A stretch of DNA of 64,000 nucleotides from a gamma proteobacterium L18 (GTDB lineage: Bacteria > Pseudomonadota > Gammaproteobacteria > Pseudomonadales > Pseudomonadaceae). Shown here piece after piece: positions 43,483 through 57,710 of the stretch. The stretch covers positions 230,616 to 294,615 of the forward strand of contig KI547169.1 in the NCBI GenBank assembly GCA_000497835.1, in the 5' to 3' direction. The notes beneath the pieces are model-generated. The model had not been told where the DNA came from and ran no database searches. It saw only the letters and a list, made by a program, of their open reading frames with translations. The translations under genes were made by a program, and so were the position numbers. The number at the start of each line of letters is the position of its first letter. Position 1 is the stretch's first letter.

Positions 43483-44052
43483 TTAGTAGCGTTTGAAGAT
43501 CAGCTCCCCTTGCCTGTGTTTGTTGACCGAGCGCGACGGGGCATGGAAGAAATTCCAAAGCACATTCCCATTCTGAATATCGACGACCACGATCATGTCG
43601 TTCTTCGCTTCGTAGACATTGATAAACACCCATCGAAAACAGCCGTTTGTATAGGCAACACTCCATATCTCGAATGGCCCTGTAAGGGTATCAATCGCAT
43701 GCCTGACATAACGCTCTCGCGAATCGGCGCGCTTTTCAACAATGTGTGGCAGGCTCGCCCTCGGGATTCGGATAGCCCCTATCGGCGTCATGAATGAGAC
43801 CTCTGAAACAGATGGCTCACTCAGCCCGAAATGCTCAAAAAGAATGAGCAATGCGCCCTCTGCGTCGTCTGCTCGCGGAACCTCCTGGATTGCGGGTGAG
43901 CGCAGTTCACGGGCCAAAGTCCGAAGGTCTGGCAAATGCAGGTCGTGCCATTTGATCTGCCCGGCGTGTTCTCTGACCGGGGATTGATTGAGATCTGCGG
44001 ATAGTGTCGAGAGCGTGTCACAAGTTTGCGAAAGCAGCGTTTGCCATACCAT
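43483..44052 (-). CDS. PBECR2-type nuclease-fold protein, likely toxin or phage-head protein fragment
   Basis: The 189-residue protein ends in what reads as a PBECR2 domain (phage-Barnase-EndoU-ColicinE5/D-RelE-like nuclease). The segments are LPHIVEKRADSRERYVRHAIDTLTGPFEIW (about 100-129), a strand pair RWVFINVYEAKNDMIVVVDIQ, and LWNFFHAPSRSVNKHRQGELIFKRY to the C-terminus. Such domains are predicted RNases at the C-terminus of polymorphic toxins and of Mu-type head proteins. No ribosome-binding site precedes the ATG at 44052, and coding-like sequence continues upstream in another frame. The protein is probably the C-terminal part of a broken longer gene. No immunity gene is obvious. Confidence 0.65.
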   Translation of the reverse strand: MVWQTLLSQTCDTLSTLSADLNQSPVREHAGQIKWHDLHLPDLRTLARELRSPAIQEVPRADDAEGALLILFEHFGLSEPSVSEVSFMTPIGAIRIPRASLPHIVEKRADSRERYVRHAIDTLTGPFEIWSVAYTNGCFRWVFINVYEAKNDMIVVVDIQNGNVLWNFFHAPSRSVNKHRQGELIFKRY

Positions 44053-44405: not shown

Positions 44406-44607
44406 GGCCGCATAGTCCGGCGGTCGCGTTTTCAGCGGCCTGGATTTAGCAGTCCGGCTCACTCCCCATGCAGCTCGTCGTTGGACCGAGGCGTTTCGTA
44501 TCGCCCTCAGTTTATGGCTACTGCACATGGGGCATCTTCGGATGCGCCGGGGTGGGAGTAACCCGGTCTGCTAATCCGTGTGCAGTTGCCACCTGATCGT
44601 TTAGCAG
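44406..44607 (+). ncRNA. Multi-branched structured leader with alternative pairing
   Basis: Several helices can be drawn. P0: GGCCGC (44406-44411) with GCGGCC (44435-44440). P1, interrupted: GGAT 44442-44445 with ATCC 44574-44577, TAGCAG 44447-44452 with CTGCTA 44568-44573, CCGG 44454-44457 with CCGG 44563-44566, and ACTCCC 44461-44466 with GGGAGT 44554-44559. Inside P1: GCAG 44470-44473 with CTGC 44521-44524, GAGGCG with CGCCCTC (44488-44508), and a UUCG-capped hairpin GCATC/GATGC (44532-44545). A second TTAGCAG at 44601-44607 could compete for CTGCTAA at 44568-44574. It precedes a small gene whose ATG is at 44647, so a cis-regulatory switch is likely. The stretch 44244-44405 shows nothing else. 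Confidence 0.55.
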
Positions 44608-45045: not shown

Positions 45046-45555
45046 TCAGCGCGCCACCCACATCCGCCGCAACACCGGCTTGCCCACCACCTGATGCTTC
45101 ACCACCGCCAGCACATGCAGCGCCACCAGCATCCCCAGCAACCCATTGCACCCGGCATGCAGGGTATGGAAACGATGATCCCACACCGGGTCCGTAATCG
45201 GCTGCGGCAGGGTCACCCAGTCGAACACCTGGATGGGCCGGTCCATCATCAGCACGCCCGTCAGCAGCACCAAGGCGGTGACGGCGTAGATGACGTTGTG
45301 GATAACCCCGGCCAGCCGCTCACCCGGCCGATGGCCGTGGTCGCGCAAGTGGCGCAGGCGCAGCCAGGTGCGCACGGCGAACACGGGGATGAACAGAATC
45401 GACAGGGATACGTTGAGGCCGGCGATGGTGGCCTTGAAGGTGGGGGTAACGTCGAGCAGCATCACCGAGAAACCCATCACCAATGCCCAGATGATGAAGG
45501 CTGCGGACAGCCAATGCAGGATTAGCTGGGCGGGGGTGTAGTGGGCTGGTTTCAT
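45046..45555 (-). CDS. Cytochrome b561 family protein (downstream of T2SS)
   Basis: The 169-residue protein is a four-helix di-heme cytochrome b561 of the inner membrane that carries electrons between quinol and acceptors. Candidate heme ligands are His14 (LILHWLS), the His in VIHNVIYAVTALVLLTG, and the two His in FHTLHAGCNGLLGMLVALHVLAVV. The C-terminus ends VLRRMW. It is a clear paralogue of the b561 at 54465-54974: same length, the same YTPxQ-x2-LHWLSAA start, and shared MMDR-QI-x-FD and PVLRRMW segments. It follows gspM by 87 bases of AT-rich sequence that may hold its own promoter. Confidence 0.9.
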   Translation of the reverse strand: MKPAHYTPAQLILHWLSAAFIIWALVMGFSVMLLDVTPTFKATIAGLNVSLSILFIPVFAVRTWLRLRHLRDHGHRPGERLAGVIHNVIYAVTALVLLTGVLMMDRPIQVFDWVTLPQPITDPVWDHRFHTLHAGCNGLLGMLVALHVLAVVKHQVVGKPVLRRMWVAR

Positions 45556-45642
45556 GGCGGCTGGCTGGCAATCAGAATGATAGCGAAACAATATTATCGC
45601 ACGAAATGGAATGGTAACTCTTTGCATTTCAAAATCAACGGG

Positions 45643-46062
45643 TCACCCGTCGGCCATGCGCAGGCGCACCACCAACTCGTCCTCCTGGCGCAGTATTTCC
45701 AGGCTTTGCCAACGGTTACCCATGTGTTCCAGGGTTGCCAGCCAACGCAGCAGTGCCAATGCCTCGCCGCTTGCCAACAGGCGCAAGCGGCCGCTCTCGA
45801 CGGTCAGCTCTCGCAGGGTCACGTTGCCCCGCTCGGCGCTCTCGCGCAGCCGGTCGGCCAGCGGCATTCCCCCTGGATGATCGATAGCGGCCAGGGCATG
45901 CTGCAAATGCAGCTGTTGCTGGTGCTCGATGCGCACCTGGGCCAGGTATTCGCGCGCGGGTAACCAGGCGCCGACATAGCCGATGACCACAGCGAGGAAT
46001 ATTCCCAGGCCCTGCAACCCTCGTCGCTCGCGAACGGAGCGCTGCTGCCAGTAGCCTCTCAT
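45643..46062 (-). CDS. gspM: Type II secretion inner-membrane protein GspM
   Basis: GspM is a bitopic inner-membrane protein that stabilises GspL and the assembly platform. The 139-residue product has one N-terminal helix at about 18-37 (LQGLGIFLAVVIGYVGAWLP), followed by a periplasmic ferredoxin-like domain (LADRLRESAERGNVTLRELTVESGRLRL). The ATG at 46062 overlaps the gspL stop by four bases. It is the last gene of the gsp run. The assignment rests on position and topology because GspM sequences are poorly conserved. Confidence 0.82.
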   Translation of the reverse strand: MRGYWQQRSVRERRGLQGLGIFLAVVIGYVGAWLPAREYLAQVRIEHQQQLHLQHALAAIDHPGGMPLADRLRESAERGNVTLRELTVESGRLRLLASGEALALLRWLATLEHMGNRWQSLEILRQEDELVVRLRMADG

Positions 46063-47096
46063 GGCGGGTCTCCGGCCCACACCACGGTAGCGATGCTTCG
46101 TCCGTCGGCCGATGTACCGGGCTGTACCTGGAGTGGCGGTTGCAGCAATGCCAGGGCCTGCGGGTGCACCGTGCTGACGTCGACCGCCCAGCCTTCGGGA
46201 GGGCGCCAGGCAATGCGCTCTACCTCCAGGTGCGGGCTGGCCGCGATCATTGTCACCAGCTGTGCCAGGCGATCCATTTCTGTGTTTTGCGGGGATTGGC
46301 GCGGACGTTGGGCGAGGCGTAGCCGAGTCGCCACGTCCACCACATGCCGTTGTTGCGGGAAAAGGTGCTCGAAACGCGAGGTGTTGGCCTGCGACAGTGC
46401 CTGGGCTTGCTGATCAATATGCTGGGCACGGGCCAGGGTGAACACGCTTGCCAGCAAGCCCATCGCCATGGCACTGGCCGCCACGCTGCGCCAGGGCAAC
46501 CGCCAGGCCCGCGATCCGCCGGCCAGCAGGTCCAGGCCCGGGCGGGTCGGCTGCCAGCCGGCCTCTTCCCCGAGCCATTGCATATCGTCCGGCAGGCGTT
46601 CTTTCAGCAGCGCCAAGCCCTCCGTTGAAAGTGCCAGCCGCGCAGGCAAGGTACCGCCCAGCAACCAGCGGCCACCCCACCAGAGCCCACAGGGAAGCTG
46701 GCTCGGCAGCAGGTCGGCATCAATGTGCACAGCCAGCAGCTTTATCCGTTGCAGCAAGCCCATCACCGAGGCGAAGCGCTCGCGCTCGGTGAACCACAGG
46801 CAGTAGCGCCGGGAACGGTCGGCGCCGGTCACGAACAGCTGTAAAGCCTCAAGGTCGCCGGCCATCTGCTCCTCCAGCGCGTAGGCAATCGCCAGAGTTG
46901 AAGGACGACGCCCAGGCCACGGCTCGGTGCGCAGCCAGCCGAACAGTTCCATGGGCAGCACCACGCGCACAGGCTCGACGCCCACCGCATCCAGCGCCAT
47001 GGCACGCGCCGGCTCACCTGGCCGGTACAACAGGCAAGGCCACTGCGCACCGGGCTTATCGAGGCCCTCGGGCAACAAGTACAACCAGGCAGTCAT
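46059..47096 (-). CDS. gspL: Type II secretion platform protein GspL
   Basis: GspL links the cytoplasmic ATPase GspE to the inner-membrane platform. The 345-residue protein has a cytoplasmic actin-like N-terminal domain (about 1-195), one membrane helix near 205-222 (SVAASAMAMGLLASVFTLA) and a periplasmic C-terminal domain with the segment MDRLAQLVTMIAASPHLEVERIAW. The start ATG overlaps the gspK stop by two bases. It is somewhat shorter than GspL of the Xcp system but has the full domain order. Confidence 0.87.
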   Translation of the reverse strand: MTAWLYLLPEGLDKPGAQWPCLLYRPGEPARAMALDAVGVEPVRVVLPMELFGWLRTEPWPGRRPSTLAIAYALEEQMAGDLEALQLFVTGADRSRRYCLWFTERERFASVMGLLQRIKLLAVHIDADLLPSQLPCGLWWGGRWLLGGTLPARLALSTEGLALLKERLPDDMQWLGEEAGWQPTRPGLDLLAGGSRAWRLPWRSVAASAMAMGLLASVFTLARAQHIDQQAQALSQANTSRFEHLFPQQRHVVDVATRLRLAQRPRQSPQNTEMDRLAQLVTMIAASPHLEVERIAWRPPEGWAVDVSTVHPQALALLQPPLQVQPGTSADGRSIATVVWAGDPP

Positions 47097-47782
47097 GGCC
47101 AGTGTTCTCCCGTTTCGCTGAACGGCAACAAGCGCCGCTGCCGCAGCGCTGGGCGACGGCTGTTGCGCTCAAGTTCAAAGTCGCTGATCAACTGCACACC
47201 ACGTCCGCCAAGAGAGGCACGCGCCCGCACCTGAAACCAGCGGCTGGACACGCTAAGCACCGGGGTTGCCGGTGCCTGTCCGCCCAAGGCGGCGGTGAGG
47301 CTGCCGTATCCCTGGGCGGGGCGATTGGCGATGATCTGCCGGGCAAGCTCCGGCGCCAGCCCAGCGGTCTGCATGGCGGCCAGCCCTGCGGTGTTGATGT
47401 TCAATCCGGCATGAGCTGGCAAGTGGGCCACAGCGGTTGAGGCCTCACTCGTCAGGCCCGGGTGGCCTGGAGCAGGTTGATTGGCACGCCCCGCCAGATC
47501 CTCGATCACGACCTCCAATTGGCCACCTGCCGGTATCCAGGGCGCCTGCACCTGTGCCCAGGGCTGATCGAGCGTCACCGGCCCAGCCTGGCGCGGCAAC
47601 TGGCCCTGTGCCCATTGTTCGGCGCTCAGCACCCACTGGCGCAACTGCAGTGCCTGTAGTTGCCAGGCGCTGCTGCGCACCAGCAAACGGTGCTCGCGTA
47701 CCATACCGGCCGTGATCAACAGTGCCAGGGTCATGACCAGCAGCACGCTGATCAGCGCGATCCCCCTTTGATGATGCGGCAT
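47093..47782 (-). CDS. gspK: Type II secretion minor pseudopilin GspK, short form
   Basis: GspK caps the pseudopilus. The 229-residue protein has a prepilin-type start: a basic leader MPHHQRG followed by IALISVLLVMTLALLITAG, with cleavage expected after Gly7. As in other GspK proteins, Glu5 of the mature chain is absent. The helix-hairpin-like segment LNINTAGLAAMQTAGLAPELARQIIANRP is the GspK/ComEA-like signature. It is about 100 residues shorter than typical GspK (around 330), so the inserted alpha-domain appears reduced. The ATG at 47782 overlaps the gspJ stop by one base. Confidence 0.85.
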   Translation of the reverse strand: MPHHQRGIALISVLLVMTLALLITAGMVREHRLLVRSSAWQLQALQLRQWVLSAEQWAQGQLPRQAGPVTLDQPWAQVQAPWIPAGGQLEVVIEDLAGRANQPAPGHPGLTSEASTAVAHLPAHAGLNINTAGLAAMQTAGLAPELARQIIANRPAQGYGSLTAALGGQAPATPVLSVSSRWFQVRARASLGGRGVQLISDFELERNSRRPALRQRRLLPFSETGEHWP

Positions 47783-48303
47783 CAGCGGCCGTCCGACAGT
47801 AGCCATACACGGCGCACATGCGGGTAACGCGCCGTGGACAGGCTCAGCTCAAGGGCCACCGCGCGACGCGTACCATTGGGCCAACGCAGGTGCCAGTCAC
47901 CTTCCTGGTCGCGCACGCGCCATTGCAGTTGCTGCACCCCGTCCAGCAAACGCTGATGGTGTGCCGCCCCCTGCCCTTCACGGCGCCAGACCGACGACAC
48001 CAGATCATGCCTGACCTGCTGATACTCGCTGCGCGGCTGCCCCGGCGGGTTGCGCCAGTTGCCGCGCAGCAATTGCAAACCACCAGGGGTCAGGCGTAAT
48101 GAGCGCGGCAGAAGGTGCAGAACGTCACGTTCCACGACTGCCAGCGACCGTTGCAGGCTGCGCAAGCCCTGCGCCTGTTCGGCCGCGATGCGCTGGGCCC
48201 GGACCACGGTGTCGAACAACTGCCAGCAGCCCAGGCCCAGCAAGGCGAACAGCGCCAGGGCAATCAGCAGTTCCAGCAAGGTGAAACCGTGCTGCCTATC
48301 CAC
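47782..48303 (-). CDS. gspJ: Type II secretion minor pseudopilin GspJ
   Basis: GspJ is a pseudopilus-tip subunit. The 173-residue protein starts at GTG 48303 with the short leader VDRQHG and the prepilin motif G-FTLLELLIALALFALLG, with Glu5 present. It contains VERDVLHLLPR and a C-terminal WLLSDG typical of GspJ. The start overlaps gspI by eight bases. A much longer upstream reading exists in the same frame but runs antiparallel to no family sequence and only overlaps gspI. Confidence 0.88.
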   Translation of the reverse strand: MDRQHGFTLLELLIALALFALLGLGCWQLFDTVVRAQRIAAEQAQGLRSLQRSLAVVERDVLHLLPRSLRLTPGGLQLLRGNWRNPPGQPRSEYQQVRHDLVSSVWRREGQGAAHHQRLLDGVQQLQWRVRDQEGDWHLRWPNGTRRAVALELSLSTARYPHVRRVWLLSDGR

Positions 48304-48640
48304 CCCAAGTCCTCCAGGCATCAAGGGTGTGCACGCGACTACCGGCGGCCTCCAACCGCAGTTGCATCCGAACCGTGTCGCCCTGCCGGGCTTGCTGCAA
48401 TAGCCAGCGACGGCCGCCAAAATCGATGGTTTGAGACTCGCGACTGCGAAAGCGATCAGGTTCGAACTGCAGGTGGGCAAGATGATTGTCCAGGATCCAT
48501 AGTGCGAACTGCCGCTCTTGCAACTGCTCGGCCTGGCGCAGCACGAACTGGCTGGCGCCCAGCACCGCAGCCGCCATGACCGCGAACACCGCCAGCGCCA
48601 CCATCATTTCCAGCAGGGTGAAGCCACGCTCACGCTTCAT
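48296..48640 (-). CDS. gspI: Type II secretion minor pseudopilin GspI
   Basis: GspI initiates the pseudopilus tip complex with GspJ and GspK. The 114-residue protein has the leader MKRERG followed by FTLLEMMVALAVFAVMAAAVLG, including Glu5, and the family segment ERQFALWILDNHLAHLQF. The length matches GspI proteins. It overlaps gspH by 11 bases and gspJ by eight. Confidence 0.9.
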   Translation of the reverse strand: MKRERGFTLLEMMVALAVFAVMAAAVLGASQFVLRQAEQLQERQFALWILDNHLAHLQFEPDRFRSRESQTIDFGGRRWLLQQARQGDTVRMQLRLEAAGSRVHTLDAWRTWGG

Positions 48641-49088
48641 GCCAGACCGGCTCGTTCAAACCATCACCTTCAACGATCAGCAGCGCCTTGCCCTGCGCCT
48701 GCAGATGCAGTTCAAACGGGCTGTATTCATCGCTGCTCCACACGGTTATCTGCGGCACCGTGGCATCGGCACCAAGGGCGCCCTGCCGCCACCACCAGGC
48801 CAGGCCGCCGCTGCGTTGAAACGCGCCCACAGGCTGCCAGCCACCTGCCTCAAGCCGCAGCAGGCGATAACCCTCAACGTTGAACAGCAATCCGTATTCA
48901 CGCCCCTCCAGCACGGCGCTTTCCCTGACGGCCTGGATCAGACGGACGACGCCATCTGCCTGCTCGCGTGCTTCACGCCCAGGCGTTGGACCGGCGACCA
49001 GGCTGACCATGCCCACCAGCACACCGATCAGCACCATCACCAGCAGTGTCTCCAGCAACGTAAAGCCGTGCATGCCTGGCGCGTTCAT
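48630..49088 (-). CDS. gspH: Type II secretion minor pseudopilin GspH
   Basis: GspH bridges the pseudopilus tip and the major pseudopilin. The 152-residue protein has the prepilin motif MHG-FTLLETLLVMVLIGVLVGMVSL with Glu5, followed by VRLIQAVRESAVLEGREYGLLF, typical of GspH. I place the start at the ATG at 49088, which overlaps the gspG stop (ATGA); an inner ATG five codons later would give a shorter leader. An open frame continues upstream over gspG but is not credible. Confidence 0.88.
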   Translation of the reverse strand: MNAPGMHGFTLLETLLVMVLIGVLVGMVSLVAGPTPGREAREQADGVVRLIQAVRESAVLEGREYGLLFNVEGYRLLRLEAGGWQPVGAFQRSGGLAWWWRQGALGADATVPQITVWSSDEYSPFELHLQAQGKALLIVEGDGLNEPVWHEA

Positions 49089-49519
49089 GGTTGCTGCCAG
49101 TTGCCGATATCCGCGGCAACCCCCTCCCCATCGGGCAAGCCGTCGGCCCCCAGGGAGTACAGATCGTAATGGCCAGGAGAGCGCTCGCCGGGGTTGACGT
49201 ACTGGTAGGCCGTGCCCCACGGATCCACGGGCACACGGCGCAAATAACCCTGAGGGTTCCAGGCCCGCGCCTCGGGCAACCCCACGGGCCGCTGCACCAG
49301 GGCTTGCAGCCCTTGCTGGCTGGAGGGATAGGCATGGTTGTCGAGCCGGTACATCTCCAGCGCGGTGGCGATGGCTTGCAGGTCGCTGCGCGCGGCGGTG
49401 ACCTTGGCCTGGTCGGGCCGGCTCATGAATTGCGGCACCACCAGCGCGCCCAGCACGCCGATGATCACCACCACGATCATGATCTCGATCAGGGTAAAAC
49501 CACGTTGCGGCATGTCCAT
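49085..49519 (-). CDS. gspG: Type II secretion major pseudopilin GspG
   Basis: GspG polymerises into the pseudopilus that pushes substrates through the secretin. The 144-residue protein has a short leader MDMPQRG and FTLIEIMIVVVIIGVLGALVVP with Glu5. It also has the strongly conserved GspG regions MYRLDNHAYPSSQQGLQALV, PVDPWGTAYQY and the calcium-loop end YDLYSLGADGLPDGEG. The ATG at 49519 overlaps the gspF TGA by one base. It needs cleavage by a prepilin peptidase; none is encoded here, so PilD/XcpA from elsewhere must serve. Confidence 0.95.
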   Translation of the reverse strand: MDMPQRGFTLIEIMIVVVIIGVLGALVVPQFMSRPDQAKVTAARSDLQAIATALEMYRLDNHAYPSSQQGLQALVQRPVGLPEARAWNPQGYLRRVPVDPWGTAYQYVNPGERSPGHYDLYSLGADGLPDGEGVAADIGNWQQP

Positions 49520-50709
49520 CAAGTCACCAATTGGTTGAGGCTGAGAATGGGCAGCAGGATGGCCAGGACGATCAGCAACACCACGCCCCCCATCACCACC
49601 AGCATCAAGGGTTCGAACAGGCTGACCAGCAGCGCGACCTGGGCAGCGAGGGTCTTTTCCTGCTGCTGGGCGGCGCGCTCAAGCATCGGGTTGAGTTCGC
49701 CTACCCGTTCGCCGCAGGCGATCAGGTGCAACATCATCGGCGGCATATCACCGGCCTGGGTCAGCGCGTGGGTGAGGCTGCTGCCCTGGCGCACCGCCTC
49801 GGCCGCCTGCAGCAGGCGGGTGCGGATGCCGAGGTTGCCCACCACGCTGGCGGCAATGTGCAAGGCGTCCAGCAGCGGCACCGCGCTGTGCCCCAGGATG
49901 GCCAAGGTGCTGGCAAAACGCGCCGCGTCCATGGCCCGAACGGTTCGCCCCAGCAGCGGCAGACGCAGCAGCGTGCCATGCCAGCGCAGGCGCAGGGCCG
50001 GTCGGCGCAAGGCGGCGCGCGCGGCTATGCCAGCCAGCGCAAACATCCCCAGCCCCCACAGGCCATGGCCGCTGACCCCGTCGCTGAGCACGATCAACGC
50101 CTGGGTCAGCCACGGCAGGGCCTGCCCGCTGTCGGCGAACATCCCCACCACATCGGGCACCACGAAGCCCAGCAGGAACCCGACGATCCCCGTGCACGCC
50201 ACAAACAGTATCAGGGGGTACACCAATGCCATCTGAATGCGCTGACGCGCCTGCTGGCGAGCCTGGGTGTAATCGGCCAATTGCTCCAGGACCAGGCCAA
50301 GATGGCCACTGCTTTCACCGGCAGCCACGGTGGCGCGATACAACTCAGGGAAGCTGTTGGGGTGCTCCCCAAGGGCATCGGCCAACCGATGGCCTTCGAC
50401 CACCCGCAGGCGCAGCGCCTGGATCAACGCGGCCACGGCTGGCCGGGCGGTTTGGCCGGCAACCGCGCCCAAGGCCTCCTCCAGCGGCAGGGCAGCCTGC
50501 ACCAACGTGGCCAATTGGCAGGTAAACAATGCCAGCTGCGCACTGCCCAGCCTGACGCCGCCAGGGCCTTGATGGCTGGCCACCATCGACTCCACGACCA
50601 GCCCGCGGTCACGCAATGCCTGCCGGGCAACACGGGCACTGTCCGCCGTTTGCACACCTCGCAGCATGCGACCCTCGGCGTTGCGGGCGCGATAGCGAAA
50701 ATGCGCCAT
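49519..50709 (-). CDS. gspF: Type II secretion inner-membrane platform protein GspF
   Basis: GspF is the polytopic platform protein thought to couple GspE motion to pseudopilus assembly. The 396-residue protein starts MAHFRYRARNAEGRMLRGV, has two repeated cytoplasmic T2SSF domains (about 65-190 and 265-390) and three membrane helices (about 165-190, 215-235 and 370-392). The length and N-terminus match the family. It is separated from gspE by two bases. Confidence 0.94.
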   Translation of the reverse strand: MAHFRYRARNAEGRMLRGVQTADSARVARQALRDRGLVVESMVASHQGPGGVRLGSAQLALFTCQLATLVQAALPLEEALGAVAGQTARPAVAALIQALRLRVVEGHRLADALGEHPNSFPELYRATVAAGESSGHLGLVLEQLADYTQARQQARQRIQMALVYPLILFVACTGIVGFLLGFVVPDVVGMFADSGQALPWLTQALIVLSDGVSGHGLWGLGMFALAGIAARAALRRPALRLRWHGTLLRLPLLGRTVRAMDAARFASTLAILGHSAVPLLDALHIAASVVGNLGIRTRLLQAAEAVRQGSSLTHALTQAGDMPPMMLHLIACGERVGELNPMLERAAQQQEKTLAAQVALLVSLFEPLMLVVMGGVVLLIVLAILLPILSLNQLVT

Positions 50710-50711
50710 GC

Positions 50712-52160
50712 CTAGGTCGCCCCAGTGACGCGCAACAGCTCGTCGATGCTGGTCTGCCCAGCCAGCACCAGCCGCAGGCCATCTTCGAACAGGCCGGTGC
50801 CGGCCTGGCGGGCAACCTTCAGCAAGTCACCCTCTGCGGCGCCGGCATGCACCATCGCGGCGAGCGCGGGGTCCATGACTACCAGCTCGTAAATGCCCTG
50901 GCGTCCGCGATAGCCCTGCAGGCAGTGCTCGCAACCTGCCGCGCGGTACAGCGGCGTGGGGGGCGCAACGGCCAGACCCAGGCGCCGCAGGTCCTGCGCA
51001 CCCACGTCATGGGCCACCTTGCAGACGCTGCACAGCGTGCGCACCAGCCGTTGCGCCAGCACGGCCGTCAACGAAGAGGCCAGCAGGTACGCATCCACCC
51101 CCATGTCCAACAGACGGGTGATGGCGCTGACCGCGCTGTTGGTGTGCAGCGTGGACAGCACCAGATGCCCCGTCAGCGATGCCTGGACCGCCACCTGCGC
51201 GGTTTCGCCATCGCGGATTTCACCGACCATGACCACGTCCGGGTCCTGGCGAAGTATCGCCCGCAGGCCACGGGCAAAGGTCATGTCCACCCGTGGATTG
51301 ACCGGAATCTGGCCAATCCCGGGCAGGTGGTATTCCACGGGGTCCTCGACGGTGAGGATATTGCGCGAACTGTCGTTGAGCCGCTCCAGCGCCGCATACA
51401 GGCTGGTGGTCTTGCCTGAACCCGTGGGGCCGGTCACCAGCACGATGCCATGGGGCCGGGCCAGCACGTCGCGCCAGCGGCTCAGTGTGTCGCTGGCCAT
51501 GCCCAGCGCCGCCAGATCGAAACGGCCGGCCTGCTTGTCCAACAGCCTCAGCACCACCCGTTCGCCGTGGGCAGAGGGCAAGGTCGAGACGCGCACGTCC
51601 ACCTCATGCCCTGCCAGGCGCAGGGCCATGCGGCCATCCTGCGGCAGGCGCCGTTCGGCGATGTCCAGGCGTGCCATGACCTTGATCCGCGACACCAGCA
51701 GCCCCGCCAGTTCGCGGCGTGGCCGCAGCACCTCGCGCAATTGGCCATCAATGCGCAGGCGCACCACCATGCTGTGCTCGAACGTCTCCAGGTGTACGTC
51801 CGAGGCTTTTTCGCGCACGGCCTGGCCAAGCAAGGCATTGATCAGACGAATGATCGGCGCATCACCCTCCTGCTCCAGCAAATCAGCGGTACGCGGCAAC
51901 TGCTCGGCCACTTGCAACAAGTCCAGGTCGCCATCCAGCCCCTGGGCCATCTGCTCGGCCGCGCTGTGACCCTCCTGATAACAGCGAGCCAGCTGGCTGG
52001 CAAATTCCGCCGCGCCGAGCACCTGCAGTGACGCCTGCGGCGGCATCAGGCGCAGCCCCTCGGTCACGGCTGTCAGGGGTGCATCCTCGCGCACCCATAG
52101 GCAACCCTGATCCAACAGCACACCGAAGCGCTGGGCGAATGCGAACGGCAAGGCGCTCAT
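50712..52160 (-). CDS. gspE: Type II secretion ATPase GspE
   Basis: GspE is the cytoplasmic hexameric ATPase that powers pseudopilus extension. The 482-residue protein has the Walker A GPTGSGKTTSLYAAL (about 243-257), the Asp box ILTVEDPVEYHLPGI, Walker B VVMVGEIRDGETAQ, the His box TGHLVLSTLHTN, and the tetracysteine zinc motif (CSVC and CEHCLQGY). It starts four bases inside the end of gspD. The N1E-type N-terminal domain appears short, in keeping with a length slightly below the usual ~500. Confidence 0.95.
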   Translation of the reverse strand: MSALPFAFAQRFGVLLDQGCLWVREDAPLTAVTEGLRLMPPQASLQVLGAAEFASQLARCYQEGHSAAEQMAQGLDGDLDLLQVAEQLPRTADLLEQEGDAPIIRLINALLGQAVREKASDVHLETFEHSMVVRLRIDGQLREVLRPRRELAGLLVSRIKVMARLDIAERRLPQDGRMALRLAGHEVDVRVSTLPSAHGERVVLRLLDKQAGRFDLAALGMASDTLSRWRDVLARPHGIVLVTGPTGSGKTTSLYAALERLNDSSRNILTVEDPVEYHLPGIGQIPVNPRVDMTFARGLRAILRQDPDVVMVGEIRDGETAQVAVQASLTGHLVLSTLHTNSAVSAITRLLDMGVDAYLLASSLTAVLAQRLVRTLCSVCKVAHDVGAQDLRRLGLAVAPPTPLYRAAGCEHCLQGYRGRQGIYELVVMDPALAAMVHAGAAEGDLLKVARQAGTGLFEDGLRLVLAGQTSIDELLRVTGAT

Positions 52161-53998
52161 GGTTCCTTCCCTCCAGTACGACGCATATCGACCGTCGGCC
52201 CATCGAACACCTGCTCCAGGCGGGGGCGCAGCAAAGGCGCGCGGCCATCCGCGCCACGCAACCGTTCATAGCTGCCTTCGCTCATCCCCTGCAAAGCGGC
52301 CTGTCCACGGACAATGGTGGGTCGCAGGAACACCATGAGATTGGTCTTCTCCTGCACCTCGCTGCGCCAGCGAAACAGGCCACCCAGCCACGGGATATTG
52401 CGCAGCAGCGGCACGCCCGACGCCTGGTGGCGAACGCTGTCCTTCATCAGGCCACCGATGACGATGATCTCGCCGTCATCCACCAGGATGGTGCTTTTGA
52501 GCGACCGCTTGTTGGTGATCAGGTCTTTGGTGCCGGCCGACGCGGCGGCAATCTCCGAGCTCTCCTGCTCCACTTCCAGGCGCAGCGTGGCACCTTCATT
52601 GATGTGCGGCAGAATCTTCAGGCTGATGCCCACATCCTTGCGCTCCACGGTGGTGAAGGGGTTGTCGGCGCCGTTGCCCGAGGTGGTGTAGGAACCCGTC
52701 TGGAACGGCACGTTCTGACCCACCAGGATTTCCGCTGGCTGATTGTCCAGGGTCAGCAGGCTGGGCGTGGACAGCAGGTTGTTATGGCTGCTGCTGGCCA
52801 GGGCACTGACCAGCACACCGAAGCGGTCACTGCCGGCGCCCAGCACCACGCCCTCGGGCAAACTCAGTTCGCCTTTGCCCAGCAACGAGCCGATGCTGAT
52901 ACCGGTGCCCGGAAAATTGATCGCACCGCCTGCATTGCCGCTGTTGAAGGCCCACTGCACGCCCAGCGCCTCTTTGACATCGCCGGACATTTCAACGATG
53001 GCAGCGTGAATCAGCACTTGGGCGCGAGGCAGGTCCAGTTGCTCGACAATGCGCGCCAACATGTTCAGCTGTGCGGGTTCGGCGATCAGCACCAGCGCAT
53101 TCTGGCTCTGGTCGGCCCGCACCAGCACCTCACCCGCCGCCTTCATGGTGGCCTTGCCTGCGCCGGCCGGTACGGCCTGGCCCATCTGCTGGGCAATGCC
53201 ATCCAGCACCTGCGCCAATTGCGTCGCGTCGCCATGGCGCAGCCGCACCACCCGCGAGTTGTCGGTCTTGTGGCTGGCATCGGTGTCCAGTGAGCGTGCC
53301 AGCCGTGCCAGACGCTCACGCGCAGGCGCCGTGCCGATGATGATCAAGCGGTTGCTGCGCGGGTCGGCGATCACCTGGCTGCCGGCCTCCCCAGCCGCCT
53401 TGGTCAAGGACTGCTCCATGACCTTGGCCACATCGGTCGCCAGCCCCAGCCGCAGTTCGATCACGTCATGAGCCAGATGCTCGCCCGTGTCCAGGCGCTG
53501 GACGATGCCTACCAGGCGCTCCACGTTACGCGCCGCGTCGGTGATCACCAGGGCATTGGCCGAAGCCGAAGGGCCGAGGTAGCCGTTGGCGGAGATCAAC
53601 GGGCGCAGCAAGCTGCTTAAGTCGGCGGCACTGGCCGCACCCAAGGGCACCACGCGGGTGACGAACTGGCTACGGGCCCCGCTGCCGGAGCGCGCCTTGG
53701 CCTCGGCGGCGGGCACGATCAGCAGTTGCTGGCCGTCGGCGACAGCGGCAAAGCCGTGGGTATCGAGCACTGAATAGAACAGTTCGCGCACCCCGGCCCG
53801 GTCAAGCTCGCGGTCGGAGTGCACGGTAATACGCCCTTTGACTCGCGCGTCGAGCACCACCGTGGTCCCCAGGATGGTCGACATTTCCTGCACCACGTCA
53901 CGCAACTCGGCATCCTGCATGCTCAGGTACCAGCGCTCTTCATCGGCCATGCACCAGGGGGCGATGCTCAGCGCGGCCGCGCAGATCCAGCGCCTCAT
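52157..53998 (-). CDS. gspD: Type II secretion secretin GspD
   Basis: GspD forms the outer-membrane secretin. The 613-residue precursor has a signal peptide MRRWICAAALSIAPWCMA, cleaved before DEERW. The N0 and KH-like N1-N3 domains follow (about 25-320), then the secretin core: VGQNVPFQTGSYTTSGN, TLRLEVEQESSEIA and SLKSTILVDDGEIIVIGGLM near 505-525, and NIPWLGGLFR. No GspS pilotin is encoded nearby, and the C-terminal tail after the core is short. The ATG at 53998 overlaps the gspC stop (ATGA); an upstream extension would overlap gspC without adding family sequence. Confidence 0.95.
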   Translation of the reverse strand: MRRWICAAALSIAPWCMADEERWYLSMQDAELRDVVQEMSTILGTTVVLDARVKGRITVHSDRELDRAGVRELFYSVLDTHGFAAVADGQQLLIVPAAEAKARSGSGARSQFVTRVVPLGAASAADLSSLLRPLISANGYLGPSASANALVITDAARNVERLVGIVQRLDTGEHLAHDVIELRLGLATDVAKVMEQSLTKAAGEAGSQVIADPRSNRLIIIGTAPARERLARLARSLDTDASHKTDNSRVVRLRHGDATQLAQVLDGIAQQMGQAVPAGAGKATMKAAGEVLVRADQSQNALVLIAEPAQLNMLARIVEQLDLPRAQVLIHAAIVEMSGDVKEALGVQWAFNSGNAGGAINFPGTGISIGSLLGKGELSLPEGVVLGAGSDRFGVLVSALASSSHNNLLSTPSLLTLDNQPAEILVGQNVPFQTGSYTTSGNGADNPFTTVERKDVGISLKILPHINEGATLRLEVEQESSEIAAASAGTKDLITNKRSLKSTILVDDGEIIVIGGLMKDSVRHQASGVPLLRNIPWLGGLFRWRSEVQEKTNLMVFLRPTIVRGQAALQGMSEGSYERLRGADGRAPLLRPRLEQVFDGPTVDMRRTGGKEP

Positions 53999-54465
53999 GG
54001 TGGCGGCCCTGGGTGCAGGTGACGCTGGGGTGGCAGGCCGGGCGCGCGGGCAGCAAGCCAGGGTGGCGCGCTGGCCAGGCTCAGCACCTGCTCCCGACGG
54101 CCGTGCCACAGCACCGCCCGTCCAGGCTCGACGCGACGCAGTATCGCGCCCGATGGCAGCCTGTCCCCTACCCGGTAGAAGCCTTCATGACCGTTGCCGC
54201 TGATCAGCGCACGGCCCTGACCAGAACGTTCGGCCACTATCGCCCGCACCACATGGGGGGCGCTGCCTGCCGCAGGTACAGGGCCCAGGCCAAACAGCGT
54301 GGCGATGCCGGCGCCGTCAAAGGCACTGGACGCAGGTACAGGCGCTGGCAACGCCGTCGAGATCGGCCGCTGACGCAACCGGTACTCCTGACTGGCTTGC
54401 CACCCGGCCCAGATCAGCACCAGCAGCGGGGCCAGCCACTTGAGCAACACCTGCGGCCAGGCCAT
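53995..54465 (-). CDS. gspC: Type II secretion inner-membrane protein GspC, short form
   Basis: GspC links the inner-membrane platform to the secretin and helps choose substrates. The 156-residue protein has one membrane helix at about 9-22 (KWLAPLLVLIWAGWQASQ) and a homology-region domain (ATLFGLGPVPA, VRAIVAERSGQGRALISG, YRVGDRLPSGAILRRVEPGRAVL). It ends soon after, without the PDZ or coiled-coil region of larger GspC proteins. Its ATG overlaps the stop of the upstream cytochrome b561 gene by one base, so that cytochrome belongs to the operon. Confidence 0.87.
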   Translation of the reverse strand: MAWPQVLLKWLAPLLVLIWAGWQASQEYRLRQRPISTALPAPVPASSAFDGAGIATLFGLGPVPAAGSAPHVVRAIVAERSGQGRALISGNGHEGFYRVGDRLPSGAILRRVEPGRAVLWHGRREQVLSLASAPPWLAARAPGLPPQRHLHPGPPP

Positions 54466-54974
54466 CAGTACCACATCCTCCGCAGCACCGGGGTGCGGCG
54501 CCACTGGTGGAACAGGACGGCGGCCACATGCAGCGTCACCAGGAGGCCTAGCACCACGCAGGCATATCGATGAATGCCGTGAAACAGCGTCAACAGCGCA
54601 GGATCGGTCACCGGTTGGGCAAAGCTGATGACGTCGAATATCCGGATCTGGCGATCCATCATGATGATGCCGGTCAGCAGTACCAGCGCACTGACGGCGT
54701 ACAGGCCCAGATGGGCATGGCGCGCCAGCGCCCCCTTCAGGCCAGGCGCGTGCAGGCGCTGGTGACGATGACGCCAGGCCAGCAGCATGCGCAACGCGAA
54801 CAGGGGTGTCAGCAGCGCCGTCAGCGATACGTTGAGGGCGCTGATACGCGCCTCGGTCGCCACTGCCAGGTCCGCGAAAGCGACCAGAAAGCCGCTGCAC
54901 AGCGCCCAGACAATGACGGCTGCAGACAGCCAATGCAGCGTTATCTGCAGGGGGGTATAGGAGCGTGCGTTCAT
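54465..54974 (-). CDS. Cytochrome b561 family protein (coupled to gspC)
   Basis: The 169-residue protein is a four-helix di-heme b561-type inner-membrane cytochrome. Likely heme ligands are His14 (TLHWLSAAVIVWALC), a His in LARHAHLGLYAVSALVLLTG, and the pair in LFHGIHRYACVVLGLLVTLHVAAVLFH. It is paralogous to the gene at 45046-45555. I chose the ATG at 54974, which gives the same length and N-terminus as the paralogue; a TTG six codons earlier is possible. Its TGA overlaps the gspC ATG. Placement between an LPMO gene and the secretion genes hints at a redox role linked to the secreted enzyme, which is inference. Confidence 0.9.
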   Translation of the reverse strand: MNARSYTPLQITLHWLSAAVIVWALCSGFLVAFADLAVATEARISALNVSLTALLTPLFALRMLLAWRHRHQRLHAPGLKGALARHAHLGLYAVSALVLLTGIIMMDRQIRIFDVISFAQPVTDPALLTLFHGIHRYACVVLGLLVTLHVAAVLFHQWRRTPVLRRMWY

Positions 54975-55032
54975 CAGGTTCGACTCAGACAAGAGCCGGG
55001 CGAACCATCGCCCGGCGATTCAGCGATCACGA

Positions 55033-56490
55033 TCAGAGCATTTCCCAGGCGGACTGCCAGGCATGCCCGACACCCGGCGCGTAGTGCACGGGGGAAGTGT
55101 TCCGACACCACGGTGCGACCTGGTCTGACAGGCAGCGATAGACCTTGCCGTCTGTCTGCAGCACCGTGGTGCCACCTTTGTAGTGCTCCACGCCCTCGCC
55201 GTAGACATACTCGTAATCCCCGCCACCGGCCTCACCGGTCAGGGTCACGTCCTGCAGGGCCTGCAGGTTGATGCGGCCGTCATCACTGCGCGCCAGCAAC
55301 TTGACCTGGTGCGGGCCGGGCGCCGAACGCACGGCGATACTCAGCGGCGCCGTGGTGCCGTCGACGATCTGCCGGGCAGTGCCGACGGCCTTGTGCTGGG
55401 CATCGAAAACCGTGACTTCGACATTCAGCGTGCGGTTGGTGGCCACCTTCAGGTCGACATCGACGCGGCCCTGCTGCAGTTCGTACTCGGGCAGCAGGTC
55501 CTCAAGGCGCGCGTAGGCTCCCGGGTCCCCTACCAGCTGGAAGTCCATCTGATAGCTGACCACGCCGCTTTCGGGCTGGGCATAGAACAGGTTCATGCCA
55601 CGCTGGGCCTCGATCTGCCCTTCAGCGTTGCGCTGACCCGCACGCACCAGTGGCTGCGCGGCGTTGAGCTTGTGCGCCAGCGCCAGGCTCCAGTTGTCCT
55701 GGTGACCCAGCTCATTACTGTCGATGGCCAGGGAGACCGAGTACGGCGCGCTTTCGCCGCTGTCGGTGAATGCCCGTGCGGTCACCACGTCACCGGCGAT
55801 CAACGACGGCAGCGGCGCGAAGGAGCCGACGTTTTTCCAGCCATCGTCGTAGGGGTCGGTCTGGATATCCACGTCCACCGCGTTGTAGAACGCATTGGCG
55901 GTGTCGTTGACGGTCCACACGCCATAGATCACGTGGTAGCCCTGGCGGTCGGCAGGCAGGGTGCACTGATGTTTCTGCGCCAGGTCCCCGGGGTTGGCGT
56001 TTGAACCTCCGGTGGGGAAGCCGCCATCGAATGCCACGGTACAGAAGGGTGTCAGGTCGAAGCTGGCACGAGTGAGAGGTTCATTGGGGTTCCAGCCCAC
56101 CCGGGTGATGAAGTATTCCCAGCCGGTGGTGGAATGCGCGGTGGTGAAACGCCAGTCGAAGGCGATCTCACGCTCGGTGATCTCGGTTTTGTGCCAACGG
56201 GTTGCCGATTGGGCATCCATGGCACCGAAACGCTCGATGCCGCTGGCCAGTTTGCCGTCCGCCGGGCCGGTGGCCGGGAAGCCCTTGAGTGTCTCGCCGA
56301 CGCTGTGCGGCTCGTACTGGGCGCCACCGCAATCGGTGTTGAGGCGGTCCTGGCAAAGCTTGGCACGCGAAGGTGGGAAACTCATGTAGCCGTGAGCGGC
56401 GGCTTGTTGGCTGGCCAGCAGCGCAGTGCAGGCAGTGGCCAGGAGAGCCGCGCCAACCAGCGCGGCCCTGGGTTGCAAGGCGAATTTCAT
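55033..56490 (-). CDS. GbpA-like chitin-binding lytic polysaccharide monooxygenase (AA10)
   Basis: The 485-residue precursor is a secreted copper enzyme that should cleave chitin or bind N-acetylglucosamine surfaces. The signal peptide ends at AAA-HGYMSFPPSR, so His33 becomes the N-terminal copper ligand; His119 in FTTAHSTTGWEYF is the second. The AA10 domain (33 to about 215) is followed by two GbpA-type middle domains (about 225-425) and a C-terminal CBM5/12 module (about 432-485) with VYRCLSDQVAPWC and aromatic residues. P. aeruginosa CbpD and Vibrio GbpA are T2SS substrates, so this is the likely cargo of the adjoining gsp system. A strong ribosome site GGGAGG is buried in a hairpin. Confidence 0.93.
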   Translation of the reverse strand: MKFALQPRAALVGAALLATACTALLASQQAAAHGYMSFPPSRAKLCQDRLNTDCGGAQYEPHSVGETLKGFPATGPADGKLASGIERFGAMDAQSATRWHKTEITEREIAFDWRFTTAHSTTGWEYFITRVGWNPNEPLTRASFDLTPFCTVAFDGGFPTGGSNANPGDLAQKHQCTLPADRQGYHVIYGVWTVNDTANAFYNAVDVDIQTDPYDDGWKNVGSFAPLPSLIAGDVVTARAFTDSGESAPYSVSLAIDSNELGHQDNWSLALAHKLNAAQPLVRAGQRNAEGQIEAQRGMNLFYAQPESGVVSYQMDFQLVGDPGAYARLEDLLPEYELQQGRVDVDLKVATNRTLNVEVTVFDAQHKAVGTARQIVDGTTAPLSIAVRSAPGPHQVKLLARSDDGRINLQALQDVTLTGEAGGGDYEYVYGEGVEHYKGGTTVLQTDGKVYRCLSDQVAPWCRNTSPVHYAPGVGHAWQSAWEML

Positions 56491-56598: not shown

Positions 56599-57663
56599 TT
56601 ACTGGTGGTACTGCGCCGAGAACTCATGCACGGCGTTGATGAACGCGCCCGCATGCTCCGGGTCCACTTCCGGGGTGATGCCATGGCCCAGGTTGAACAC
56701 ATGGCCGGTGCCATTACCGTAGCTGGCCAGGATGCGCGCCACTTCAGCACGGATGGCTTCGGGCTTGGCGTACAGCACGGTCGGGTCCATGTTGCCCTGC
56801 AGGGCCACCTTGTTGCCCACGCGGCGACGGGCTTCGCCCAGGTCGCACGTCCAGTCCAGGCCCAGCGCGTCGGCGCCGGCGTCGGCGATGCTTTCCAGCC
56901 ACAGGCCGCCGTTCTTGGTGAACAGGATGACCGGCACTTTGCGGCCTTCGTGTTCGCGGATCAGGCCGCTGACGATTTTCTTCATGTAGGCCAGCGAGAA
57001 CTCCTGGTACGCCGCGGCCGACAGGTTGCCGCCCCAGGTATCGAAGATCTGCACGGCCTGGGCGCCAGCCAGGATCTGACCGTTGAGGTAGCTGGTGACC
57101 GACTGGGCCAGCTTGTCCAGCAGCAGGTGCATGGCGTGCGGGTTGTCGTAGAGCATGGCCTTGGTCTTGCGGAAGTCTTTCGACGAGCCGCCTTCCACCA
57201 TGTAGGTGGCCAGGGTCCACGGGCTGCCCGAGAAGCCGATCAGCGGCACGCGGCCGTTGAGCTCGCGGCGGATGGTGCTGACGGCGTCCATCACGTAGCC
57301 CAGGTCCTTTTGCGGATCAGGGATCGGCAGGGCTTCGATGTCGGCCAGGGTGCTGACCACTTTCTTGAAGCGCGGGCCTTCGCCGGTCTCGAAGTACAGG
57401 CCCTGGCCCATGGCGTCGGGGATGGTGAGGATGTCGGAGAACAGGATGGCAGCATCCAGCGGGTAGCGTTCCAGCGGTTGCATCGTGACTTCGCAGGCGA
57501 ACGCCGGGTTCATGCACAGGCTCATGAAATCACCGGCCTTGGCGCGGCTGGCGCGGTATTCAGGCAGGTAGCGACCGGCCTGACGCATCATCCAAACGGG
57601 GGTGACGTCGACGGGTTGCTTGAGCAGGGCACGAAGGAAACGGTCGTTCTTCAGGGCAGTCAT
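56599..57663 (-). CDS. hemE: Uroporphyrinogen decarboxylase
   Basis: HemE decarboxylates the four acetate side chains of uroporphyrinogen III to give coproporphyrinogen III in heme synthesis, in the cytoplasm. The 354-residue protein shows the family signatures [16 protein letters not shown] (about 22-37) and [17 protein letters not shown] (about 140-156). The ATG at 57663 gives the standard length; the frame is open further upstream through the REPIN but without homology. It lies downstream of gltBD on the same strand, separated by a terminator and a REPIN, so it is probably transcribed on its own. Confidence 0.96.
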
Positions 57664-57710
57664 GGGAGCATCCGGCAGATAAGTGCCAGCATTTTCCCAG
57701 ACTGGAACGC

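Follow-up and report, generated by a model that had tools for sequence, protein, structure and literature searches.

A recurrent, optional cytochrome b561 gene in LPMO-linked type II secretion loci of Pseudomonas

Type II secretion systems (T2SSs) encoded beside the gene of a secreted chitin-binding protein have been described in Yersinia and Pseudomonas. The Yts1 system of Yersinia enterocolitica is linked to the gene of the GbpA-like secreted protein ChiY, and the excerpted text of a 2012 review (PMC3521999) reports that a cytochrome was found linked to such clusters several times: in P. aeruginosa and P. putida a putative cytochrome b561 gene precedes a ChiY-like gene with its T2SS, and whether insertion or function lies behind this linkage is left open in that text. 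In P. aeruginosa PA7 (P. paraeruginosa) the complete accessory T2SS Txc is likewise encoded beside the gene of a chitin-binding protein, CbpE (excerpt of PMC12369383). The locus analyzed here lies on a stretch of 64,000 nucleotides (the window) from the gamma proteobacterium L18 (Pseudomonadaceae; assembly GCA_000497835.1, contig KI547169.1, positions 230,616 to 294,615). On its minus strand hemE is followed by the gene of an AA10 lytic polysaccharide monooxygenase (LPMO), a cytochrome b561 gene (b561a), gspC to gspM and a second b561 gene (b561b). The order from LPMO to b561b had been predicted from the letters alone and was confirmed by reading the open reading frames (ORFs) and their Pfam matches; the accompanying statement of the original prediction, that no T2SS with b561 had been described, is contradicted by the 2012 review.

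The window locus resembles both described systems in that a GbpA/CbpD/ChiY-type gene adjoins a T2SS, here and in 79 of 80 related loci surveyed below. Txc differs in lying in the island RGP69 together with the two-component genes PSPA7_1420-21, whereas the window block lies at hemE, and in Yts1 the 3' end is taken by ChiY and the 5' end by a PclR-like regulator, whereas the window has the LPMO gene at the 5' end, followed by b561; neither a TtsS/TtsR two-component pair nor a PclR-like regulator was seen among the ORFs adjoining the block. As in the window, a b561 gene is placed in a P. aeruginosa T2SS cluster of the Txc kind by the review excerpt (PMC3521999), and PSPA7_1418, whose number falls between txc and cbpE, is probably that gene. 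A more distant parallel is LcoA-BcnA of Burkholderia cenocepacia, where a b561 is co-transcribed with an exported protein and has a role against oxidative damage; the partner there is a lipocalin, the excerpt (PMC9113575) mentions neither T2SS nor LPMO, and the likeness is one of description. A literature search with b561 and LPMO terms returned a single match, an unrelated house dust mite transcriptome (PMC12105342), and a search combining b561, heme ligand, asparagine and quinone found no paper.

LPMO-linked secretion loci with and without b561

The LPMO gene and the T2SS form a conserved unit, of which b561 is a recurrent, start-coupled and optional member. A total of 149 same-genus genomes were searched with b561a (survey A, E<=1e-3), which gave matches in 90 genomes: 43 strong matches at E<=4.5e-19 in 38 genomes (the two in the window included) and a weak remainder from 7.5e-10 upward. 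Up to 20 kb were fetched around all 41 strong matches outside the window. LPMO, b561 and gspC follow one another in 23 of these loci, b561 follows hemE without a complete LPMO gene or T2SS in eight, and the other ten lie elsewhere with no T2SS. Searches independent of b561 found LPMO_10 in 80 of the 149 genomes and GspE (E<=1e-100) in 138, with the LPMO gene beside the closest GspE in 35. Between LPMO and gspC a b561 gene is present in 24 of the 35 and absent from 11, and for all 11 the gene order without b561 was seen directly. The linkage is thus not confined to this genome, a confinement that the original prediction had named as refuting it, and b561 goes together with an adjacent AA10 gene, the co-occurrence it had proposed as a check: none of 22 genomes that carry a sister GspE (61-64% identity) and no LPMO gene within 10 kb of it has a strong b561 match (24/35 vs 0/22, Fisher p ~6e-8, relatedness not corrected). 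Both classes were counted by hand from coordinate lists, and gene content was read at two of the 22 sister loci (L102 and L103). Counting any b561 of the Asn45 subfamily described below, the figures are 24/35 vs 14/114 genomes (Fisher p 3e-10, likewise uncorrected for relatedness).

A second sample was selected by the secretion ATPase. An alignment of GspE was searched against GTDB genomes and the best 80 of 173 hits, all Pseudomonas, were examined (survey B); this choice biases the sample toward near relatives, and the two surveys overlap. The taxa include P. batumici, P. gingeri, P. fuscovaginae, P. putida strains, P. syringae and P. lundensis. An LPMO gene lies upstream of the T2SS in 79 of the 80 loci, and a hemE homologue lies within the fetched stretch in 74. 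The exception without LPMO is L139 (P. bubulae), where the T2SS lies near hemE and neither LPMO nor b561 was found. An intact b561 precedes gspC in 45 loci; it is broken in three (L132, L143 and L163), stands after gspM in three (L130, L135 and L154) and is missing from 29, among them 28 of the 79 loci that carry the LPMO gene. On the GspE tree the presence of b561 before gspC requires 20 changes, of which starred branches force 11 or more; the trees are quick ones on which gain and loss are not distinguishable, and loss is indicated by what remains of the gene in L132, L143 and L163. A role of b561 as an obligatory T2SS subunit was rejected on these two grounds, its absence from 29 loci and the 20 changes. 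Two tandem LPMO genes precede the T2SS in L060 and L093, with b561 in the former and not in the latter.

The position at hemE does not by itself account for the linkage. Five loci whose fetched stretch contains no hemE (L145, L148, L202, L049 and L060) retain the succession of LPMO, b561 and gspC, and the first three of them are half of the six survey B loci without hemE; the linkage is therefore not merely a shared insertion site at hemE, and a pure insertion-site effect was rejected. An apparent distal b561 in nearly all survey B loci was traced to the query frames of L066 and L068 overrunning the gene, and trimmed queries left a distal b561 only in L130, L135 and L154. Matches to gspJ at the relatives' loci carry no weight, since the query was out of frame, and were used in no conclusion.

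The start of gspC is coupled to the end of b561a by a one-base overlap (TGATG; b561a TGA at 54467-54465, gspC ATG at 54465-54463), as had been predicted. In 39 of the 45 GspE-selected loci with an intact b561 upstream, no more than 20 nt separate the b561 stop from a candidate gspC start, taking in each locus the start closest to the stop, which favours short distances; the coupling is thus not a quirk of the window. Across the same 45 loci LPMO and b561 are 49-109 nt apart, and this gap holds a hairpin with z<-2 in 43. A hairpin of this strength also follows the LPMO stop in 21 of 28 loci without b561, giving 64 of 73 overall (all z against single-base shuffles). The hairpin is possibly an attenuator or a 3'-end stabiliser and would separate abundant cargo from scarce machinery, in which case b561 belongs with the machinery cistron.

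Table 1. Features of the window block, with positions in the window and the basis of each assignment
Feature	Position	Strand	Basis
hemE (uroporphyrinogen decarboxylase), flank of the block	56599..57678	-	read from translation
AA10 LPMO, GbpA/CbpD type, 485 aa	55033..56490	-	PF03067 E=1e-41; GbpA_2 E=2.7e-17
LPMO-b561a gap with 9-bp G+C-rich stem GCCGGGCGA/TCGCCCGGC	54975..55032	-	-23.1 kcal/mol, z -1.9
b561a, four-helix cytochrome b561, Asn45 subfamily	54465..54974	-	PF01292 E=2.5e-21
gspC, short (~156 aa)	53995..54465	-	PF11356 25.1 bits, below 27 cut-off; position
gspD, secretin; start judged from translation	52157..53998	-	PF00263, PF03958, type_II_gspD_N0; TIGR02517 504 bits, cut-off 351
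gspE, ATPase	50712..52160	-	PF00437 E=9.4e-150
gspF	49519..50709	-	PF00482 E=1.6e-53
gspG, major pseudopilin, approximate start	49085..49522	-	PF08334 E=2.3e-38
gspH, approximate start	48630..49085	-	N-methylation motif only; position, homologues in other loci
gspI	48296..48640	-	PF02501 and N-methylation motif
gspJ, approximate start	47782..48300	-	PF11612 E=1.3e-12
gspK	47093..47806	-	PF03934 24.7 bits, just above 24.2 cut-off
gspL	46059..47096	-	PF12693; TIGR01709 70.6 vs cut-off 65
gspM	45643..46080	-	PF04612 E=6.2e-13
b561b, second Asn45 b561	45046..45555	-	PF01292 E=2.6e-18

The gspC-gspM set of the window (table 1) comprises secretin, ATPase, platform protein and pseudopilins, with gspC and gspH placed with the help of homologues elsewhere. 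Pfam cut-offs are exceeded by gspE, gspF, gspG, gspI and gspJ, gspD and gspM are clear, and in gspL the GspL_C domain scores above its cut-off and T2SSL below. No prepilin peptidase gene (gspO/pilD) lies within the block, which was the part of the genome searched for it. The LPMO_10 domain starts at residue 33 and opens with the histidine of the mature N-terminus (HGYMSFPPSR) that follows the signal peptide, as in AA10 enzymes, the cleavage site being judged by eye; against the NCBIfam GbpA model the protein scores 458 bits, below the cut-off of 481. The source genome contains a single LPMO_10 match (the window LPMO), and eight matches each to PF01292 and to the secretin domain. For b561b the longest ORF spans 45046-45627 and a family-like start lies at 45555.

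The block is flanked on one side by hemE, gltD and gltB (read from translations) and on the other by two ORFs, a small one and one for PBECR2, and its G+C content is 66.1% compared with 63.3% for the window. A C4 antisense RNA (RF01695, 66.7 bits; 44510-44596, plus strand) lies just downstream of b561b and near the PBECR2 phage-type nuclease ORF (43483-44052); both are read as remnants of mobile elements. The C4 RNA is the sole Rfam match above cut-off and lies outside the block, and a regulatory RNA inside the block was therefore rejected. The window GspE stands on a long branch (1.14) relative to the 80 Pseudomonas loci and represents a divergent T2SS lineage.

An asparagine at an outer-haem position

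Family model and four-helix fold both identify b561a as a prokaryotic cytochrome b561 (PF01292). Its AlphaFold model (predicted local distance difference test, pLDDT, 86.5) finds as its best match in the PDB 5oc0, the Escherichia coli superoxide oxidase CybB (Foldseek E=3.2e-5, TMq 0.77), to which the protein is 22% identical (phmmer E=1.5e-4); the second match, hydrogenase-1 cytochrome b, is not significant. In the excerpted description of CybB (PMC11869295), haem 1 (ligand H151, with H13 in the modelled haem-1 region) lies close to a quinone site that includes H87 and H158; haem 2 is on the periplasmic side, close to R30, R35, R38, R108 and K134. The fold and the haem-1 and quinone-site histidines are shared by b561a, whereas His45 is replaced by asparagine and D164 is missing. 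We take H45 and H137 to hold haem 2, as their position in the fold also implies.

The replacement is invariant in the subfamily. Among 93 aligned b561 rows (88 different sequences) all 93 have asparagine at CybB position 45 and all 93 have H13, H87, H137 and H151, and H158 is present in 92, with one gap; the copies of the window genes (L037 and L038) and the broken frame of L099 (the G085 b561) were excluded from this and from the 42-row count below. The second histidine pair is thus reduced to H137, and with a single canonical histidine the outer haem would be expected to have an open coordination site or to be absent. By comparison, 20 same-genus paralogs hand-picked from the weaker rows of survey A have His45 in every readable row (19 of 19), and all 20 have D164, and 29 other b561 matches from the class and the phylum (E<=1e-20) have His45 in 28. 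The residues of the CybB superoxide site are mostly lost: in 42 rows R30 is found in none, the R108 position is a gap in all, K134 is lysine in four, R35 is arginine or lysine in two and R38 is lysine or arginine in 30. These charges discriminate poorly, because they are variable in the 20 ordinary paralogs too (R30 in one, R108 in none, K134 in four). With the NCBIfam b561 equivalog, whose cut-off is 170, b561a scores 21.8 bits and b561b gives no match.

Judged from the genomes searched, the Asn45 subfamily looks narrow. Of 368 further genomes from the class, two contain it, both without a T2SS match in the fetched stretch, and 398 genomes of the phylum gave one distant further match, L225; a wide occurrence was therefore rejected. 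L225, the exception among the 29 control matches, is an Asn45 b561 from another family of the class with a score between the two groups, and no T2SS gene was recognised by eye among the ORFs of its 1.5-kb flanks. Solitary Asn45 genes were also found on Duffyella and Pantoea plasmids (two records examined out of 11), with no T2SS annotated within the 26 kb shown. Further matches in Vibrio, Photobacterium and Caballeronia (25-33% identity) were left out of the Asn45 counts.

The second b561 gene and relatives without secretion genes

The original prediction counted both cytochromes as parts of one accessory block; b561b lies outside it and has a history separate from that of b561a. In L048 (genome G086) and L050 (G051) hemE is followed directly by the counterpart of b561b, at 94% and 85% DNA identity (95% and 85% for the proteins), and both genomes have zero LPMO_10 matches. 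The DNA alignment with L048 runs up to window position 56599, at the hemE stop, and resumes at 45543, just inside b561b; that with L050 runs up to 56597 and resumes at 45534, with a short extra match of the L050 gene to b561a. The 11-kb LPMO-b561a-gspC-M block falls between these junctions. In the b561 tree b561b forms a group with L048 and L050 (support 100*), and b561a is placed elsewhere, near L049 with weak support. The two genes as a matched pair were accordingly rejected, b561b being the solitary hemE-side gene of the relatives; no other of the 149 genomes has two strong b561 matches within 10 kb of each other, and no survey B locus contains two full b561 genes.

Overall, 14 of the 149 genomes carry an Asn45 b561 without this LPMO-T2SS, and ten of the 14 have no LPMO_10 match at all. 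The label of a hemE-side b561 without T2SS requires six changes on the b561 tree, at least five of them forced by starred branches. One such locus, L075, is the sister of the T2SS-bearing L079 (96*) and has a 49-residue LPMO match beside hemE, as expected of a deletion remnant. The ratio of nonsynonymous to synonymous substitution rates (dN/dS) between L048 and L050 is 0.14, showing that b561 is under purifying selection in genomes without an LPMO_10 match, and b561b gives 0.12 and 0.18. Two T2SS-linked pairs that share L061 (L061, L064 and L070) give 0.28 and 0.31, and seven other tested pairs give 0.12-0.23, one of them (L075-L079) pairing a solitary with a T2SS-linked gene.

Three solitary Asn45 genes have neighbors of possible relevance to copper: L077 has CopD 0.9 kb upstream, L105 lies beside a TonB receptor-DUF2946 pair, and L104 lies near a di-haem MauG-like gene. 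DUF2946 we assume to be tied to copper, and the L105 receptor, which reaches no NCBIfam cut-off, was not resolved as a copper receptor. A copper-operon theme was set aside, as it rests on three loci.

Possible roles of the cytochrome

The reading judged likeliest, held tentatively and with less than even confidence, is that b561 acts as a quinone-linked periplasmic redox helper and not as the dedicated power supply of the LPMO. The locus would provide a chitin-active LPMO with a T2SS of its own, of the Txc/Yts1-like kind, and an optional inner-membrane b561 made together with the machinery through the start coupled to gspC. The retained inner haem (H13/H151) and quinone-site histidines (H87 and H158) would support quinone-linked electron transfer, and the outer haem, left with H137 and Asn45, would be either open at one coordination site or missing. 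In its most probable role b561 would deal with a small oxidant or ligand of the periplasm (H2O2, superoxide, perhaps Cu(II)) during the passage of the copper oxidase, and so protect or condition the LPMO there. A small molecule rather than a protein is suggested as the partner because no carrier, periplasmic or extracellular, is seen to be encoded between hemE and b561b and because b561 is found without LPMO. The second cytochrome, b561b, may have the same kind of role without any link to the T2SS. Several observations weigh against the helper reading. The frequent absence of b561 also fits a passenger with no tie to the LPMO, the loss of D164 and most superoxide-site charges weakens a role with superoxide, b561 may be less constrained when it lies in the T2SS operon, to judge from the L061 pairs, and five other Pseudomonas solitary loci show no copper theme among the neighbors scanned.

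Among the alternatives, a passenger with its own function that travels with the T2SS operon by descent is somewhat unlikely, and is in keeping with the finding that b561 and the LPMO-T2SS each occur without the other, as in the eight hemE-b561 loci and on the Duffyella and Pantoea plasmids; the higher dN/dS of the two T2SS-linked pairs compared with solitary pairs agrees with it. However, T2SS-linked b561s cluster on the b561 tree (six changes vs 22 in shuffles), the slot and its close spacing are kept across the genus even without hemE, and the 22 sister-T2SS genomes have no strong match. A canonical CybB-like superoxide oxidase, passing electrons from superoxide to quinone and protecting the export route, would be consistent with the best structural match and the conserved inner-haem and quinone-site histidines, yet the invariant Asn45 and the low equivalog score speak against it, and the loss of R30, R108 and K134 adds weak evidence given the variation in paralogs; this is considered unlikely.

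A wire by which b561 passes quinol electrons outward, directly or through a carrier, to the LPMO, an enzyme in need of a reductant, was the model of the original prediction and is now doubtful enough to be called improbable. It draws on the same histidines, on the coupling to gspC and the adjacency of the LPMO gene, and on the excerpted report that the related CbpD formed no product without ascorbate (PMC7902821). The same excerpt states that pyocyanin and azurin promote CbpD activity, so other LPMO partners exist. Of the proposed dedicated export-and-reduction system, the conserved LPMO-T2SS unit (79/80 loci) and the recurrent, start-coupled b561 (24/35 genomes, 45/80 loci) stand. The obligatory wire does not: b561 is repeatedly absent from LPMO-bearing loci (28/79), where a wire would have to be replaceable, it occurs in 14 of 149 genomes without this LPMO-T2SS and is under selection in genomes without an AA10 match, no carrier gene is seen in the block, and the outer haem lacks one canonical histidine. 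Furthermore, the LPMO works outside the cell, whereas b561 sits in the inner membrane.

Two further proposals have b561 act on copper or oxygen. Reduction of periplasmic Cu(II), by which the LPMO would be copper-loaded before export, accords with a copper enzyme as cargo, with the neighbors of L077, L105 and L104, and with the activation of copper-free CbpD by azurin reported in the excerpt of PMC7902821; it is very improbable, as the neighbors concern three loci, the TonB receptor lies below all NCBIfam cut-offs and many species with an LPMO-T2SS have no b561. The least probable proposal is that the Asn45 b561 is a quinol-fed oxidase that produces periplasmic H2O2 or superoxide, or reduces copper, and so primes or feeds the LPMO. 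If true, the open, His/Asn-faced outer haem would make it a bacterial NOX-like partner within an LPMO export operon, dropped by some lineages that can draw reductant or peroxide from elsewhere.

The survey partly answers the question raised in the 2012 review excerpt (PMC3521999), since the slot of b561 is kept also where hemE is missing. The cytochrome accompanies LPMO-linked and not sister T2SSs; yet it is dispensable there and occurs on its own as well. Through the Asn45 signature its function becomes testable with one purified protein, and the same signature warns against naming members of this subfamily di-haem superoxide oxidases.

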